A stretch of DNA of 64,000 bases from Luteithermobacter gelatinilyticus (GTDB lineage Bacteria; Pseudomonadota; Alphaproteobacteria; Sphingomonadales; Emcibacteraceae). A model generated the notes under the pieces. That model made no database searches. It worked only from the letters and a program-made list of their open reading frames with translations, and had not been told where the DNA came from. Positions 4,954 through 11,662 of the stretch are shown here, one piece after another (positions within the stretch are counted from its first letter, which is position 1; each line of letters opens with the position of its first letter). Both the position numbers and the translations under genes were made by a program. Where the stretch lies: the NCBI RefSeq assembly GCF_005849285.1, contig NZ_CP040517.1:1742501-1806500 (forward strand), given 5' to 3'.

Positions 4954-5111
4954 CCGTCTCTCAGGGACGGTATCGGGAAAAGATTGTCGACATATAGGTC
5001 AGCCTGTAATGGGCCCTTCATATATGTTGGCTAATCATAACGACGCGGAAAATGGCCTGACATCAGGGTCCGTAGACTGCATAACAGACTGAAGGAAAGG
5101 AAGTGGGATTT

Positions 5112-6428
5112 ATGTCGAATACAAGCGAAAAACTAGTTTCATCAGAAACTGCCAAACTGACAATTGGGGACAAAACCACTGAACTGCCGATTTTCAAAGG
5201 ATCCACGGGGCCTGATGTCATTGATATTCGGTCTCTTTATAAAGAGACCGGTATGTTTACCTATGACCCGGGTTTTACCTCCACGGCCAGCTGTGAATCC
5301 AGCATCACCTATATTGACGGTGATGAAGGTATACTTTTGTATCGGGGCTACCCCATTGATGAACTGGCCAACAAAAGCGACTTTATGGAAGTCGCTTATC
5401 TGTTGCTGCATGGAGAGCTCCCCAATCAGGCGGAAAAGGAAAAATTTGTTCATGACATCACTTATCACACCATGATTCATGAACAGATGACCAAATTCTT
5501 CTCTGGTTTTCGCAGGGATGCGCATCCCATGGCCATAATGGTCGGTGTTGTGGGCGCCATGTCCGCCTTTTATCATGACAGCACGGATATCAGCGATCCG
5601 ATCCAGCGCAAAATCGCCTCCTATCGCCTGATTGCCAAAATGCCGACCATTGCGGCCATGTCCTATAAATATTCCGTGGGGCAACCCTTTGTCTATCCGC
5701 GCAATGACCTGAATTATGCGGAAAACTTCCTGTATATGACATTCGGCGTGCCCACATGCGAACCTTACCAAGTCAATCCGATCCTGTCCAAGGCCATGGA
5801 CAGGATCTTTACCCTGCATGCGGATCACGAACAGAACGCCTCCACCTCTACTGTCCGTCTGGCCGGCTCTTCCGGGGCCAATCCGTTTGCCTGTATCGCC
5901 GCCGGGATTGCCTCTCTGTGGGGGCCGGCGCATGGCGGCGCGAATGAAGCCTGCCTGAATATGCTTCAGGAAATCGGTCACACCGACAACATTCCGGAAT
6001 ATATCAAACGGGCCAAGGATAAAAACGACCCGTTCCGTCTGATGGGATTTGGTCACCGCGTTTATAAAAATTATGACCCCCGCGCCAAGGTCCTGCAGGC
6101 AACGGCTCATCAGGTGCTTGCTGAACTGGGGATCGAAAATGATCCGCTGCTGGATGTGGCCCGGGAGCTGGAGCGCATTGCCCTGGAAGACGAATATTTC
6201 ATTGAGAAAAAACTTTACCCCAATGTGGACTTCTATTCCGGAATCATCCTGAAAGCCATGGGCTTCCCCACTGAAATGTTTACGGTGTTGTTTGCGCTGG
6301 CCCGCACAGTTGGCTGGGTTGCCCAATGGGGAGAAATGATTGAGGACCCGACCCAGAAAATCGGTCGTCCCCGCCAGCTTTACACCGGCGCCACAGCCCG
6401 GGAATATATACCAATAGATCAACGCTGA
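5112..6428 (+). CDS. gltA: Citrate synthase (type II)
   Basis: Condenses oxaloacetate with acetyl-CoA at the entry of the TCA cycle. The 438-residue protein matches the Gram-negative type II form. The catalytic residues are recognisable: His274 in HGGANEA, His315 in GHRVYKN and Asp373 in VDFYSG. The ATG at 5112 was chosen because the purine-rich AAGGAAAGGAAG lies at the right distance; a GTG nine bases upstream is less well placed. A strong intrinsic terminator follows. In many relatives the lipid A genes lpxB-lpxI-lpxA lie just beyond gltA, but they are absent here. Confidence 0.97.
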
Positions 6429-6457: not shown

Positions 6458-6484
6458 AAAGCCCGGCTTCAGCCGGGCTTTTTC
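6458..6484 (+). terminator. Intrinsic terminator of gltA
   Basis: AAAGCCCGGC pairs with GCCGGGCTTT around a TTCA loop and is followed by a T run. It starts 29 bases after the gltA stop codon. Confidence 0.93.
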
Positions 6485-6567: not shown

Positions 6568-6960
6568 TTACTGTTCGATAAGTTCGATCATATATCCGTC
6601 GGGGTCCTTGATAAAAGCGATAACCGTTGTCCCGTGTTTCATGGGTCCGGGTTTGCGCGTCACTTCGACCCCCGCCGCATCAAGCTCCTCGCAGACTTTA
6701 TAGATGTCCTTGACCCCAAGAGCGATATGACCAAATCCATTGCCCAGATCATACCGTTCCTCCTGGCCCCAATTATGCGTAAGCTCGATAACCGTATTGT
6801 TTTTTTCATCGCCATATCCCACAAAAGCCAGGGTAAACTTGCCTTCGGGATAATCCTTTTTACGCAGCAACTTCATCCCCAGCTTATTGCAATAAAAGTC
6901 CAGCGACCTGTCCAGATCCATCACACGGATCATGGTATGCAGCAAACGAAATTCGCTCAT
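6568..6960 (-). CDS. gloA: Lactoylglutathione lyase (glyoxalase I)
   Basis: Converts the hemithioacetal of methylglyoxal and glutathione into S-lactoylglutathione. The 130-residue protein has the two VOC beta-alpha-beta-beta-beta modules. The four metal ligands are visible as His8, Glu59, His78 and Glu126, and the repeated aromatic and IELIE segments fit GloA rather than other VOC enzymes. The ATG at 6960 follows GGAGGT at good spacing; an upstream in-frame start would add 16 unconserved residues. It occupies the place between fabZ and gltA where lpxA-lpxI-lpxB usually stand in related genomes. Confidence 0.93.
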
Positions 6961-6994
6961 GGAAGACCTCCATTTCGGATAAAGCCTAAATTTT

Positions 6995-7459
6995 TCAGCT
7001 TTCGGCAATCATCGCCGTATAAGTGGCTTCCGCCACGACCTGCCCGGCCACTTTTCCAATCCCCTTGAATTTCCATACACTGCGGCGGTTTTGCTCTTTA
7101 CTGACATGAAGCTCAAGCCTGTCTCCGGGCACAACAGGCTTCCGAAACTTGGCGCCTTCGATAGACATGAAATAGACGAGCTTGCCTTCTGCTTCCTCAC
7201 CAAGGCTGAGCATGACAAGCGCCGCCGCAGTCTGAGCCATGGCTTCCACAATAAGAACCCCCGGCATCACCGGTTTCTGAGGAAAATGTCCCTGGAAAAA
7301 AGGTTCATTCATCGTCACATTCTTAATGCCCGTGGCCGCCTCTCCCGGCACAATATCCTGCAACCGGTCCACAAGAAGCATGGGATACCGATGCGGTATG
7401 ACTTCCATAATCCTTACTACATCAACTTCTGCCGGGATTTCTTTGATTTCCTCGTTCAT
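6995..7459 (-). CDS. fabZ: (3R)-hydroxyacyl-ACP dehydratase FabZ
   Basis: Dehydrates beta-hydroxyacyl-ACP in fatty-acid elongation. The 154-residue hot-dog fold protein carries the catalytic His58 in [11 protein letters not shown] and Glu72 in VEAMAQ. It normally lies between lpxD and lpxA in a lipid A operon. Here the upstream neighbour is ompH, separated by a 147-base gap containing a terminator, and the downstream neighbour is gloA, so it is probably transcribed from its own promoter in that gap. Confidence 0.96.
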
Positions 7460-7540
7460 GATATTCCATTCTTTCTTGTCGTGGATCTTGAGAACAATTG
7501 CCGACTAAATAAAGCTTTTACTCCTCAAGCGCAAGTTTGA

Positions 7541-7573
7541 TGAAAACAAATACCCCGCGTCAATGCGGGGTAT
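7541..7573 (-). terminator. Intrinsic terminator after ompH
   Basis: Perfect 9-bp stem ATACCCCGC/GCGGGGTAT with a six-base loop. On the minus strand it is followed by TTTGTTTTC. It closes the pyrH-to-ompH operon and separates it from fabZ. Confidence 0.9.
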
Positions 7574-7606
7574 AAGTGTACCATCAAAATAGGTGACGGC
7601 TTTTTC

Positions 7607-8182
7607 TTACTTGCCTTCAACCTGGGGCAATTCCACCTTAACAGTGGGCAGAACCTGATCCAGTTGCTCAATGACCTTTGTGGTCACGTCAAGCCCCGGC
7701 ACCTGCTCAATAATCAGGCTCTTATCCATAATTACTGTGGCCCCGTGTTCATTGAGTACTTTCTGCAAAATGGGCTTCAGGGCCCGCTGCACTTCGTTCT
7801 GGGCATTGACCAGAGCGGCCTCCATTTGCCGCTGTTTGAGCTGAACTTCCCGCTGCACGGCAACAACCTTGCCCTGGAATTCCCTCACCTTGGCCTCATA
7901 GGCCTCCTTCTGCATAATGGATCTCTGGGTTTTAAGAGATTCCTCTTCTTCTTTCAGCTGTTTTTCCTTCGCCGCAATTTCATTCTGAAATTTCTGGCGA
8001 ATCTGGTCCAGCTGTGCCTGGATATCCTTACCGGCAGCAGAATTGAAACGCACCATGCGCGTGTCAATCACCGCAATGACTGCTTTAGGTAAAGTTTCCG
8101 CATAGAGGTGTTTGATTCCTGCCATAAACCCGATGGTTGAAGCAAGCGCCACCACCGTTGCTAATCTTGTAAAATGTCTCAT
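7607..8182 (-). CDS. skp: Periplasmic chaperone OmpH/Skp
   Basis: Skp trimers hold unfolded outer-membrane proteins in the periplasm and pass them to the Bam complex. The 191-residue protein starts with a signal peptide (cleavage likely after LYA, about residue 28) and has a long charged helical region rich in Glu, Lys and Gln (about 55-140) forming the Skp tentacles. Its start codon overlaps the bamA stop by one base (TAATG), showing translational coupling. lpxD, the usual next gene, is missing; a terminator follows instead. Confidence 0.93.
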   Translation of the reverse strand: MRHFTRLATVVALASTIGFMAGIKHLYAETLPKAVIAVIDTRMVRFNSAAGKDIQAQLDQIRQKFQNEIAAKEKQLKEEEESLKTQRSIMQKEAYEAKVREFQGKVVAVQREVQLKQRQMEAALVNAQNEVQRALKPILQKVLNEHGATVIMDKSLIIEQVPGLDVTTKVIEQLDQVLPTVKVELPQVEGK

Positions 8183-10506
8183 TAAAACCTTGTTCCGATG
8201 TTAAATTGGAAAAATTCTGTTTTGTCCGCCTCATCTTTAAGCAATGCCTTGGCAAAGTCAATCCTGAAGGGACCAAAAGGCGACATCCAGGAAAAACCGA
8301 TACCAGCGGATACCCGCGGAGAAACGCTGTCCCCGATGACCTGGTGAGTAAGGCCAGTGGCCGCATTCACCAGAGATGGCGGCTCATCAATTCCAAACAA
8401 CGCCCCCGCATCAACAAAGGCGCTGGCCTCGATCCCCATTTCCCGTGCCCCTGCCCCCAATGGTACAAACAGTTCGATGGATCCCGTATAATAGGTATTT
8501 CCGCCAAGAGCATCGCGGGTGATGCTGTCACGCGGTCCAACCCCTCCCCGTTCAAATCCGCGCATTTTCGGGGTTCCAAGGAAAAACCGGTCACTCAGAC
8601 GCACATCATCACTGATGCCGAAGACATTGCCCCCTTCTACGCCTACATTGAAGACCCAGTTGCCGAAGAACGGATGATAAAAGTCATAACTCGCCCGGCT
8701 GCGCAGATATTTAGTGTTGCCGCCAAGCCCCGCAAAGTCCTGGTTAAAGACAAGCCGCTGCCCCCGGCTGGGATGCTGACGATTATCCAGCGTATCATAA
8801 GACAACCCATACCCGATGGAGGAAGTGGTGAAATCTCCCCGGTTACTTTCTAGATAGGGACTGCTGGAGATAAATGTGGTTTCCACTTTGTCCCGACGGA
8901 AGGTATACCGCGAACTCATCACAATATATTCGGTCACCGGAAACGCGGTTCTCAGACTCGCGCCATAGGTCTGCTGAGTGAAATCAGCTTCAAGGAAGTC
9001 TGTATCCCGAACAAAAAGATCAACACCGGCCACCACGGCCCGATCCATGAAATAAGGCTCTGTAAAGCTGATATCTACTTCCTTGCGGAAACTGGAGATT
9101 CGCGTACCAAGACGCAGGCTCTGCCCCTTGCCCATAAAGTTTCGCTCCCCGATACTGAAATCGAAAAGGAAATTTTCACTGCTTGAAAAACCGGCCCCCA
9201 CGGACAATTCACCTGTGGCCTGTTCTTCGACAGTCACTTCAAGAATGGTCTTGTCCGGCGCGCTGCCTTCGACCTGTTCGATGGTGGCTTCCTTGAAAAA
9301 ACCCAAGCTCTTGATGCGGATTTCCGAACGCTTCACCTTCGCAGAGTTATAGGCATCGCCTTCCACAAGACGCATTTCCCGACGGATTACCTTGTCATGG
9401 GTGCGCACATTACCGGTAATATTAATTCGCTCCACATAGACCCTGGGCGCCTTGTTCACCACATAGGTAATGTCCACAGTCCGTTCCTTACGGTTACGCC
9501 GGACTCTGGGGCGGACGTCCACGAAGGCATACCCCTTAAGACCGGCCACATCGGTCAACAGTTCGACTGTCCGGTCAATCTGGGAAGAATTGTAGATGTT
9601 GCCTTCTCTGGTCACCACCAAAGGCTCCAACAATTCGGATTTCAGGTCAGGAATTCTGCTGTCAACGGTTATTTTGCCGAAAGAATAAACCTCACCTTCT
9701 TCAACGGTAATATTGATAAAGAAATGCTCCTTGTCCCGGGCCAGCTCCGCGACCGCCGAAGTAATGCGGAAATCCGCATACCCTTTGGATCGGTAAAAAT
9801 CACGCAGCAACTGTTTGTCATAAGCCAGGCGATCGGGGTCATAGGTGTCTTCAGAGGTCAAAAACTTCCACCAGCGGCTTTCCTTGGTCGCCATGACGCC
9901 GCGCAGGTCGTCGTTATTAAAGGCTTTGTTGCCCATAAAGTTGATTTTGCCGATTTTGCTTTTCGGCCCTTCGCTGATCTCAAAAACCAGATTCACCCGG
10001 TTCTGATCCAGCTGGATAACCTTGGGCTCGATGGTCGCCGCAAACCGTCCCCCCCGGCGATACACTTCCAGAAGCCGCTGCACATCCGCACGCACCTTGG
10101 CCCGCGAGAATACGATCCGCGGCCTAAGCTGGATTTCTTCATACAGCTTGTCGTCTTTTTTGTATTTGTTCCCCTCGAAAGCGATACGGTTGATGATCGG
10201 GTTTTCCACCACTTCCACCACCAGGGTATTGCCGGCTCGGCCGATTTTTACGTCTGAAAACAGCCCGGTATTGAAAAGTCTTTTAAGTGAAATATCGACT
10301 TTCTGCTCATCATAATCCTCCCCCTCGGAAACAATCAGGTAGGATTTAATGGTTTCGGCTTCGATCCGTTGGTTCCCAACGACCTGAATAGACTGAATCG
10401 CATCTCCATAGGCGCCGGTTTGCGCCAGACCACCCGATACAGGTCCCAGAAATGAAAATGTTAATGAACAAACAAATCCAAGAGTAATAAAAAAGCGATT
10501 TTTCAC
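8182..10506 (-). CDS. bamA: Outer-membrane protein assembly factor BamA
   Basis: The central Omp85 component that folds beta-barrel proteins into the outer membrane. The 774-residue protein has a signal peptide ending near LAQ, five POTRA domains (roughly 30-425) and a C-terminal 16-stranded barrel finishing in phenylalanine (NIGTRF). Barrel motifs such as GFERGGVGPRD are present. The start is GTG at 10506, preceded by AGGAAA at good distance. It lies 46 bases after rseP and overlaps ompH. Confidence 0.97.
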   Translation of the reverse strand: MKNRFFITLGFVCSLTFSFLGPVSGGLAQTGAYGDAIQSIQVVGNQRIEAETIKSYLIVSEGEDYDEQKVDISLKRLFNTGLFSDVKIGRAGNTLVVEVVENPIINRIAFEGNKYKKDDKLYEEIQLRPRIVFSRAKVRADVQRLLEVYRRGGRFAATIEPKVIQLDQNRVNLVFEISEGPKSKIGKINFMGNKAFNNDDLRGVMATKESRWWKFLTSEDTYDPDRLAYDKQLLRDFYRSKGYADFRITSAVAELARDKEHFFINITVEEGEVYSFGKITVDSRIPDLKSELLEPLVVTREGNIYNSSQIDRTVELLTDVAGLKGYAFVDVRPRVRRNRKERTVDITYVVNKAPRVYVERINITGNVRTHDKVIRREMRLVEGDAYNSAKVKRSEIRIKSLGFFKEATIEQVEGSAPDKTILEVTVEEQATGELSVGAGFSSSENFLFDFSIGERNFMGKGQSLRLGTRISSFRKEVDISFTEPYFMDRAVVAGVDLFVRDTDFLEADFTQQTYGASLRTAFPVTEYIVMSSRYTFRRDKVETTFISSSPYLESNRGDFTTSSIGYGLSYDTLDNRQHPSRGQRLVFNQDFAGLGGNTKYLRSRASYDFYHPFFGNWVFNVGVEGGNVFGISDDVRLSDRFFLGTPKMRGFERGGVGPRDSITRDALGGNTYYTGSIELFVPLGAGAREMGIEASAFVDAGALFGIDEPPSLVNAATGLTHQVIGDSVSPRVSAGIGFSWMSPFGPFRIDFAKALLKDEADKTEFFQFNIGTRF

Positions 10507-10552: not shown

Positions 10553-11662
10553 TTATCCCACCAAGCCCATAATGTCATTCAGCGTGGCAAACACCATTAA
10601 CCCGAGAATGAGAATCAATCCAATACGAAATCCTAATTCCTGGGTTTTTTCACTCAGTTTTCTCCCCAAAGCTGCTTCGAAACCGTAAAACAGCAGATGT
10701 CCCCCATCCAGCATCGGTATCGGCAAAAGGTTGATAATACCCAAATTTATCGAAATCATGGCAATAATCGAGATATAGGAAAATATGCCTTGCTCAGCAG
10801 ATTGGCTGACCACCTGAGCAATCTTGATTGGCCCGCCCAGTTCCTTGGCGGAACGGTCTCCGAACAAGATCTGCCCCAACCCCCGAAACGACATTTGAAT
10901 AATGTCCCAGGTCCGTTCGACGCCGGCCCAGAATGCTGCGGGCACACTAAGCTCACGGATTTCTGAACGCCCTACGGAACGCACCCCGATAAGGGCAACC
11001 CGTTGAATATTTCCGTACCCGTCATCCACTTCTTCAAGGCGCGGGGTCAGGCTCACTTCAATGAGACGTCCGCCCCGGTCAATCTCCAGACTGACCGGTT
11101 CCTCCAGATTGAGCATGATTCGGGTTTTGATGTCATTAAAGCTTTCGACAGCAACCCCATCCACAGAAACAATACGATCATTCGGCTGTAATCCGGCCTG
11201 TTCAGCGGGGCTTCCGGGCACCACCTCATCCACAATCGGCGGCGTATAGATCTGCCCAAAAGTTATGTAAAACGAGGCCAGAATCAATACCGCCAGCAAC
11301 AGATTTGCAAAAGGACCGGCAAAAACAATCGCCGCGCGTTGCGGTAGGCTTTTATAATGGAAGGCGACCTTTCGTTCTTCCTCACTCATATGGGGAAGGG
11401 AGCCATCAGGAGTGCTGGCGGCACTGGCATCGCCAAAGAATTTGACATATCCCCCCAGCGGAATATAGCTGATCTTCCAGCGGGTTCCTTTCCTGTCAGT
11501 CCAGCCCCAGATTTCGCGACCAAACCCGATGGAAAACACCTCTACCCGCACACCGCACATCCGGGCCACAATGTAATGGCCCCATTCATGGATAAAAACC
11601 AGAACGGAAAGGGCGACGATAAACGCCCCGGCATAAAATATAAACGAAAATAGAGTATCCAT
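10553..11662 (-). CDS. rseP: RIP metalloprotease RseP (site-2 protease family)
   Basis: An inner-membrane zinc protease that cleaves transmembrane anti-sigma factors and leftover signal peptides. The 369-residue protein has the HEWGH zinc motif (His25, Glu26, His29) in its first helix, a PDZ domain (about 115-200), and the second active-site motif LDGG in the C-terminal membrane region (NLLPIPMLDGG). It starts 9 bases after dxr, in the same operon as bamA, the classical arrangement linking envelope stress sensing to barrel assembly. Confidence 0.96.
   Translation of the reverse strand: MDTLFSFIFYAGAFIVALSVLVFIHEWGHYIVARMCGVRVEVFSIGFGREIWGWTDRKGTRWKISYIPLGGYVKFFGDASAASTPDGSLPHMSEEERKVAFHYKSLPQRAAIVFAGPFANLLLAVLILASFYITFGQIYTPPIVDEVVPGSPAEQAGLQPNDRIVSVDGVAVESFNDIKTRIMLNLEEPVSLEIDRGGRLIEVSLTPRLEEVDDGYGNIQRVALIGVRSVGRSEIRELSVPAAFWAGVERTWDIIQMSFRGLGQILFGDRSAKELGGPIKIAQVVSQSAEQGIFSYISIIAMISINLGIINLLPIPMLDGGHLLFYGFEAALGRKLSEKTQELGFRIGLILILGLMVFATLNDIMGLVG

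Follow-up and report, generated by a model that had tools for sequence, protein, structure and literature searches.

Gene content of the lexA-rpsB block

The window, i.e., the whole 64 kb stretch of DNA that was analyzed, contains a complete block of genes in the order lexA-comEC-gltX-gltA-gloA-fabZ-ompH-bamA-rseP-dxr-cdsA-uppS-frr-amino-acid kinase-tsf-rpsB, as revealed by Pfam and NCBIfam searches. With the same searches the identities of dxr, the cdsA-like and uppS-like genes, frr, tsf, rpsB, lexA, comEC and gltX were checked. The amino-acid-kinase gene between frr and tsf is presumably pyrH, judging from its position. The following features were distinguished in the part of the block that extends from gltA to rseP:

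5103..6428, plus strand: gltA, citrate synthase, the right-hand border of the block (PF00285, E = 3.9e-144)
6458..6481, minus strand: terminator-like hairpin between gloA and gltA, with a 10-pair stem and a T tail
6568..7008, minus strand: gloA, lactoylglutathione lyase (TIGR00068, 180 bits, cut-off 120)
6961..6994, minus strand: gap of about 34 bp between fabZ and gloA, the site of lpxA-lpxI-lpxB in LPS-positive relatives (from the sequence and the 80 FabZ loci described below)
6995..7459, minus strand: fabZ, 3-hydroxyacyl-ACP dehydratase, which is kept (TIGR01750, 192 bits, cut-off 155)
7460..7606, minus strand: gap of 147 bp between ompH and fabZ, the site of lpxD in many LPS-positive relatives (from comparison of the 80 FabZ loci)
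7573-7550, minus strand: terminator-like hairpin inside the ompH-fabZ gap
7607..8182, minus strand: ompH, Skp-like periplasmic chaperone (PF03938, E = 1.1e-20)
8182..10506, minus strand: bamA (TIGR03303, 779 bits, over the cut-off)
10553..11662, minus strand: rseP, M50 site-2 protease, the left-hand border of the block (PF02163, E = 2.6e-71)

As read from the sequence, the likelier start of gloA is the ATG at position 6960.

The preliminary description of this region had claimed that the synteny from lexA to rpsB is intact, that lpxD is absent between ompH and fabZ, and that lpxA-lpxI-lpxB are absent between fabZ and gltA. All of this was borne out by the gene calls, by the two short gaps and by the hairpin in the ompH-fabZ gap. 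Furthermore, the LpxD, LpxA, LpxI and LpxB proteins of Caulobacter sp. BP25 and Nisaea had no tblastn match at an E-value of 1e-6 in the whole 64 kb window.

Organization of fabZ loci in other genomes

For comparison we used the best 80 of 585 FabZ loci, which come from named genomes. The order lpxD-fabZ-lpxA was found in 57 of these 80 loci, and the full order lpxD-fabZ-lpxA-lpxI-lpxB in 31 of them, some loci being cut by contig ends. In 12 of the best 80 loci the surroundings of fabZ are free of lpx genes; these are L002, L008, L020, L030 (Kordiimonas), L041, L045, L051 and L057 and, from sphingomonads, L058, L060, L063 and L070. Two of them, L002 and L008, have the same gene order as the window, with gloA between fabZ and gltA. 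In L030, L045 and L051 fabZ adjoins gltA, and gloA is missing. L045 and L051 belong to MAGs labelled Hyphomicrobiales and Paracoccaceae and contain no lpx genes at this site.

According to the preliminary description, gloA stands in the block instead of the lpx genes. This turned out to be wrong. Both lpxB and gloA are present in 12 of the 80 FabZ loci, and in eight of these 12 (L005, L009, L012, L014, L017, L022, L026 and L035) the start of gloA is less than 100 bp from lpxB; in L026 and L035 gltA follows directly after gloA. The adjacency of the two genes in eight LPS-positive loci rules out gloA as a substitute for the lpx genes. Since gloA is found near lpxB in such loci, the present gloA is an ancestral neighbor of lpxB that was left behind by the deletion.

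Distribution of lipid A genes in the host genome, its order and its class

The host genome is a single contig of 3,145,891 bases with a completeness of 99.3%. We found no full lpx set elsewhere in it. In family profile searches LpxC, LpxB, LpxD and WaaA had no match in this genome, and the LpxA-family profile gave a single match (28.2 bits, cut-off 231), which is GlmU (NF010933, 674.9 bits). The LpxA-family profile, which within the order was applied to the host genome only, also matched all 14 control genomes, four of them over the cut-off. Thus, the genome search for lpxA, lpxB, lpxC, lpxD and waaA that the preliminary description had proposed yielded none of these genes.

The survey of the host's order included 40 genomes, the host among them, from 19 genera and eight families. 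LpxC, LpxB and LpxD were each found in 0 of the 40 genomes; the controls for these searches include matches in E. coli and Caulobacter. An assembly gap as the cause is ruled out, since the host genome consists of one contig and the three genes are absent in 40 of 40 genomes.

A WaaA domain was revealed in three of the 40 genomes, the host being negative. In these three LpxC-less genomes the WaaA/Kdo-transferase N-terminal domain is over the cut-off (G003:C4:328131-328628; G032:C39:54342-54860; G038:C9:553522-554040), and the genes have no known lipid A acceptor.

In a draw of 389 genomes from the whole class, LpxC was present in 340 and missing from 49. Therefore, the absence of LpxC is not the normal state of the class. 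Among the 20 listed of the 49 LpxC-less genomes, 13 lie outside the host's order, and the host together with six other members of the order is also included. Large and complete alphaproteobacterial genomes from outside the order are found among those without LpxC (e.g., G111, G090, G088 and G131).

Among the 25 genomes holding FabZ loci, LpxC was over the cut-off in 16. The remaining nine include Kordiimonas, with one weak partial match (20.8 bits, under the 27-bit cut-off), three Sphingobium, one Sphingopyxis, and the Parvibaculum MAG of locus L029. The latter has no LpxC, yet lpxD, lpxA, lpxI and lpxB are present in it, so single draft genomes can mislead; its LpxC gap probably reflects an incomplete genome.

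Serine palmitoyltransferase and the ceramide gene cluster

The parallel to sphingomonads drawn in the preliminary description holds. The proposed search for serine palmitoyltransferase (SPT) revealed a gene in the host genome that scores 627.7 bits with NF047599 (cut-off 500), and its best PDB match is an SPT as well (2x8u, E = 3.9e-155). A cluster of ceramide genes surrounds it. In total, the aminolevulinate-synthase profile TIGR01821 had five matches in the host genome; among the four that are listed, one passes as ALAS, one is the SPT, and two SPT-like candidates were rejected as BioF (70809-71867) and Kbl (2891726-2892901, beside Tdh). SPT matches at E ≤ 1e-120 were found in 38 of the 40 order genomes, 37 of them over the cut-off. 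All 34 order genomes with at least 90% completeness and at most 5% contamination contain SPT.

The cluster around the host SPT (L098) contains genes for a fatty acyl-AMP ligase, a CerR-like epimerase/dehydrogenase, an acyl carrier protein (ACP), a DAGK-like ORF, LptF, LptG, a fatty acid hydroxylase and a GNAT protein. The DAGK-like ORF (320 aa) matches DAGK_cat with an E-value of 0.0033 and 17.5 bits, under the cut-off of 23.6, and is 25% identical to part of the Caulobacter cluster; it may be a CpgB-type ceramide kinase. The GNAT protein (406 aa; Acetyltransf_1, E = 8.7e-8) is 44% identical to a stretch beside lptG in Caulobacter locus L188 and is a putative CerS. No glycosyltransferases over the cut-off were found among the cluster ORFs scanned.

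The ceramide cluster is flanked by a gene of an MFS_1-like transporter that adjoins recX (L098:14328-15545:+) and is a candidate lipid flippase. An MFS_1-like gene was also observed in the SPT neighborhoods of six of 20 relatives. Its identification with the Caulobacter flippase was dropped, as no homologue was found at an E-value of 1e-3 in the Caulobacter stretch compared.

Content and position of the Lpt genes

LptD was found in all 40 order genomes. The host genome contains two LptF/LptG genes in total, both located inside the ceramide cluster: LptF (TIGR04407, 248.8, cut-off 230) and LptG (TIGR04408, 265.4, cut-off 240). We compared the SPT neighborhoods of 20 of the other 39 order genomes, covering all eight families. 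Both LptF and LptG are near SPT in 15 of these 20 relatives, LptF alone is found at a contig edge in one, and neither is present in four (L142, L148, L151 and L152, of which L142 and L148 reach contig ends). LptF and LptG are wholly missing in three of the 40 order genomes (G009, G020 and G031), all of them drafts.

Extra LptF/G-family genes beyond one pair were observed in G026, in Kordiimonas (G052:C5:17432-18487; L183, L198) and in G035:C2 (L206). The extra copy of Kordiimonas is a lone, fast-evolving LptF-like gene with an end branch of 1.75.

In LPS-positive genomes the genes lptF-lptG-lptD-surA-pdxA-ksgA are located beside the divergent pepA-holC. The gap between pepA and lptD is 2360-2579 bp long (4931 bp in Gluconobacter) and is filled by lptF-lptG in six of six comparable LPS-positive loci; Thalassospira L194, with lptF-lptG-lptD and no pepA match in range, and Azospirillum L191, where lptD was not found at this place, fall outside this comparison. 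In contrast, in 22 of 22 LPS-less genomes (of the 40, from all eight families) the gap is 59-312 bp long and has no lptF/G match. Thus, judging from these intervals, the LPS-type lptF-lptG pair, i.e., the extractor for LPS, seems to have been deleted just as neatly as the lpx genes.

Origin of the surviving LptF/G copies

The LptF/G tree was built from 67 sequences taken from the host, from 18 further genomes of the order and from 11 named genomes. The copies from LPS operons form one clade for F (support 100/99) and one for G (100/99). The copies of the order group with those from the Caulobacter and Gluconobacter SPT clusters, with support of 99/97 for F and 92/76 for G; with three long rows taken out (two of L196 and one of L198) the values are 98/94 for F and 94/86 for G. 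According to the AU tests, a position of the order's copies as sister to the LPS type is not rejected (F, p = 0.236; G, p = 0.132), and this is also the case without the long rows (p = 0.131 for F, the only one rerun). Only four columns for F and three for G separate the types of LptF/G, with L198 and L206 left out, and these are not informative. As kinship with the LPS type is not rejected, the argument rests on position and gene content more than on the tree.

In the same tree the LptF/G of Kordiimonas nest in family f5 and those of Sphingobium in f6, and the family of the host is f1. Thus, the host's order probably contains both Kordiimonas and sphingomonads. The LptG from the sphingolipid cluster of Gluconobacter (L196:7613-8737) has an exceptionally long branch (2.14), which may mean an altered function.

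Proposed explanation and alternatives

We consider it quite likely that lipid A was lost in the ancestor of the order and replaced by sphingolipids, which are exported by the LptFG encoded in the cluster together with LptD. On this proposal no lipid A would be made by the host, with lpxD and lpxA-lpxI-lpxB gone from the block and lpxA, lpxB, lpxC, lpxD and waaA not found in the genome. A single loss in the order's ancestor seems most likely, given that lpxB, lpxC and lpxD are missing across the order. The outer leaflet would be built on ceramide lipids instead of lipid A. A specialized, AasR-like acyl-ACP synthetase and an AcpR-like acyl carrier protein, recognized by homology and synteny, are expected to feed serine palmitoyltransferase. 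The sphingolipid may then be completed by a ceramide synthase of the GNAT type and a CerR-like reductase, possibly together with the DAGK-like kinase. Export would reuse the Lpt machine, the cluster LptF-LptG serving as a putative inner-membrane extractor that feeds the kept LptD. Since the loss of lipid A genes is combined with a sphingolipid cluster that has its own lipid-export genes, the outer membrane of the host and of the relatives examined is, as predicted from sequence, probably built on sphingolipids.

The preliminary description had left two ways open, namely that the organism may lack lipid A or carry relocated genes. The lack is supported by our data, and relocation is rejected for LpxC, LpxB, LpxD, WaaA and LpxA. 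It is true that single lpx genes do move, as some LPS-positive relatives, e.g., Azospirillum (L009, L012 and L017), do not have lpxD between ompH and fabZ. However, with four of these families unmatched in a single-contig genome, GlmU accounting for the LpxA match, and LpxC, LpxB and LpxD each absent throughout the order sample, it is hardly credible that the lpx genes were relocated elsewhere and lipid A is still made. Another question is whether lipid A was lost once or on several separate occasions in different families of the order. The 49 LpxC-less genomes of the class draw, with 13 of the 20 listed outside the order, indicate that such a loss is repeatable. Nevertheless, none of the 40 genomes from eight families contains LpxC, and the site between pepA and lptD lacks lptFG in all 22 genomes, again from all eight families, with no intermediate among those examined; repeated loss is therefore distinctly improbable.

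The third alternative concerns transport. Lipid A would be absent, and LptF/G and LptD would carry another glycolipid or polymer, sphingolipids taking another route. The accessible part of PMC11087976 (2024) states that no flippase or transporter has been identified for bacterial sphingolipids, and the AU tests leave open the origin of the surviving LptF/G, both of which leave room for such a cargo. On the other hand, the only lptFG pair of the host lies in the ceramide cluster and these genes lie in the SPT neighborhood of 15 of the 20 relatives, and PMC11324152, in its accessible part, proposes that LptC2F2G2 of Caulobacter moves phosphosphingolipids, which is itself a proposal. We regard a different cargo as unlikely.

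Returning to the ancestral replacement of lipid A by sphingolipids, we lean slightly towards a more specific version of it, namely that the ancestor lost lipid A together with the LPS-type LptF/G and that the paralogous, sphingolipid-dedicated LptF/G took over LptD. In Caulobacter and Gluconobacter the LptF/G of the sphingolipid cluster still exists side by side with the LPS pair. With such a takeover the entire Lpt bridge of the order would be a sphingolipid exporter.

Lipid A is essential in most cases, and what allows its occasional loss has yet to be explained (PMC10964400). An order-wide loss of lpx genes with a paired loss of lptFG was not found in the literature searched. With both lipid A and the LPS-type LptF/G missing and the cluster LptF/G and LptD kept, the order presents a natural genetic experiment with named genes. 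The relatives outside sphingomonads, e.g., Kordiimonas, are predicted to be endotoxin-free.

Comparison with known systems

It is already known that Sphingomonas is free of LPS and has glycosphingolipids in its place. The host shares with this type the lack of LpxC and of lpx genes near fabZ, seen in the three Sphingobium and one Sphingopyxis genomes mentioned above, and a rhodobacterial SPT that is accompanied by an ACP and an acyl-AMP ligase. The host differs from this type in its family, f1, since the LptF/G of Sphingobium nest in f6 of the tree, which suggests separate families. It differs also in that its ceramide genes and lptFG form a single cluster; the ceramide genes of S. wittichii and Z. 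mobilis are scattered, according to the accessible part of PMC11324152.

The same part of that source describes a phosphosphingolipid cluster of Caulobacter (CC_1168-CC_1152) with LptC2/LptF2/LptG2. The host cluster is similar to the cluster of Caulobacter sp. BP25 (L188, L207), with tblastn identities of 56% for SPT, 46% for the AasR-like protein, 44% for GNAT, 38% for ACP, 37% for the CerR-like protein, 32% for LptF and 28% for LptG, all in one region. However, both Caulobacter genomes have retained LpxC as well as another lptF-lptG pair, of the LPS type, between pepA and lptD, whereas the lptF-lptG of the host cluster is its only pair.

Rhodothalassium salexigens is similar to the host in that, according to the accessible part of PMC11762602, it reportedly lacks LPS, contains dihydroceramides and has a gene for SPT; the lpx genes are not named in that part of the text (0 occurrences). 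Unlike the host, it is phototrophic and is assigned to a different named order (PMC11762602, same part). Finally, PMC7179689, as far as its accessible part goes, restricts sphingolipids to Sphingomonadales in its own sense, with Kordiimonadales and Emcibacterales kept apart. The SPT and cluster genes that we found in Kordiimonas (L197) predict otherwise.
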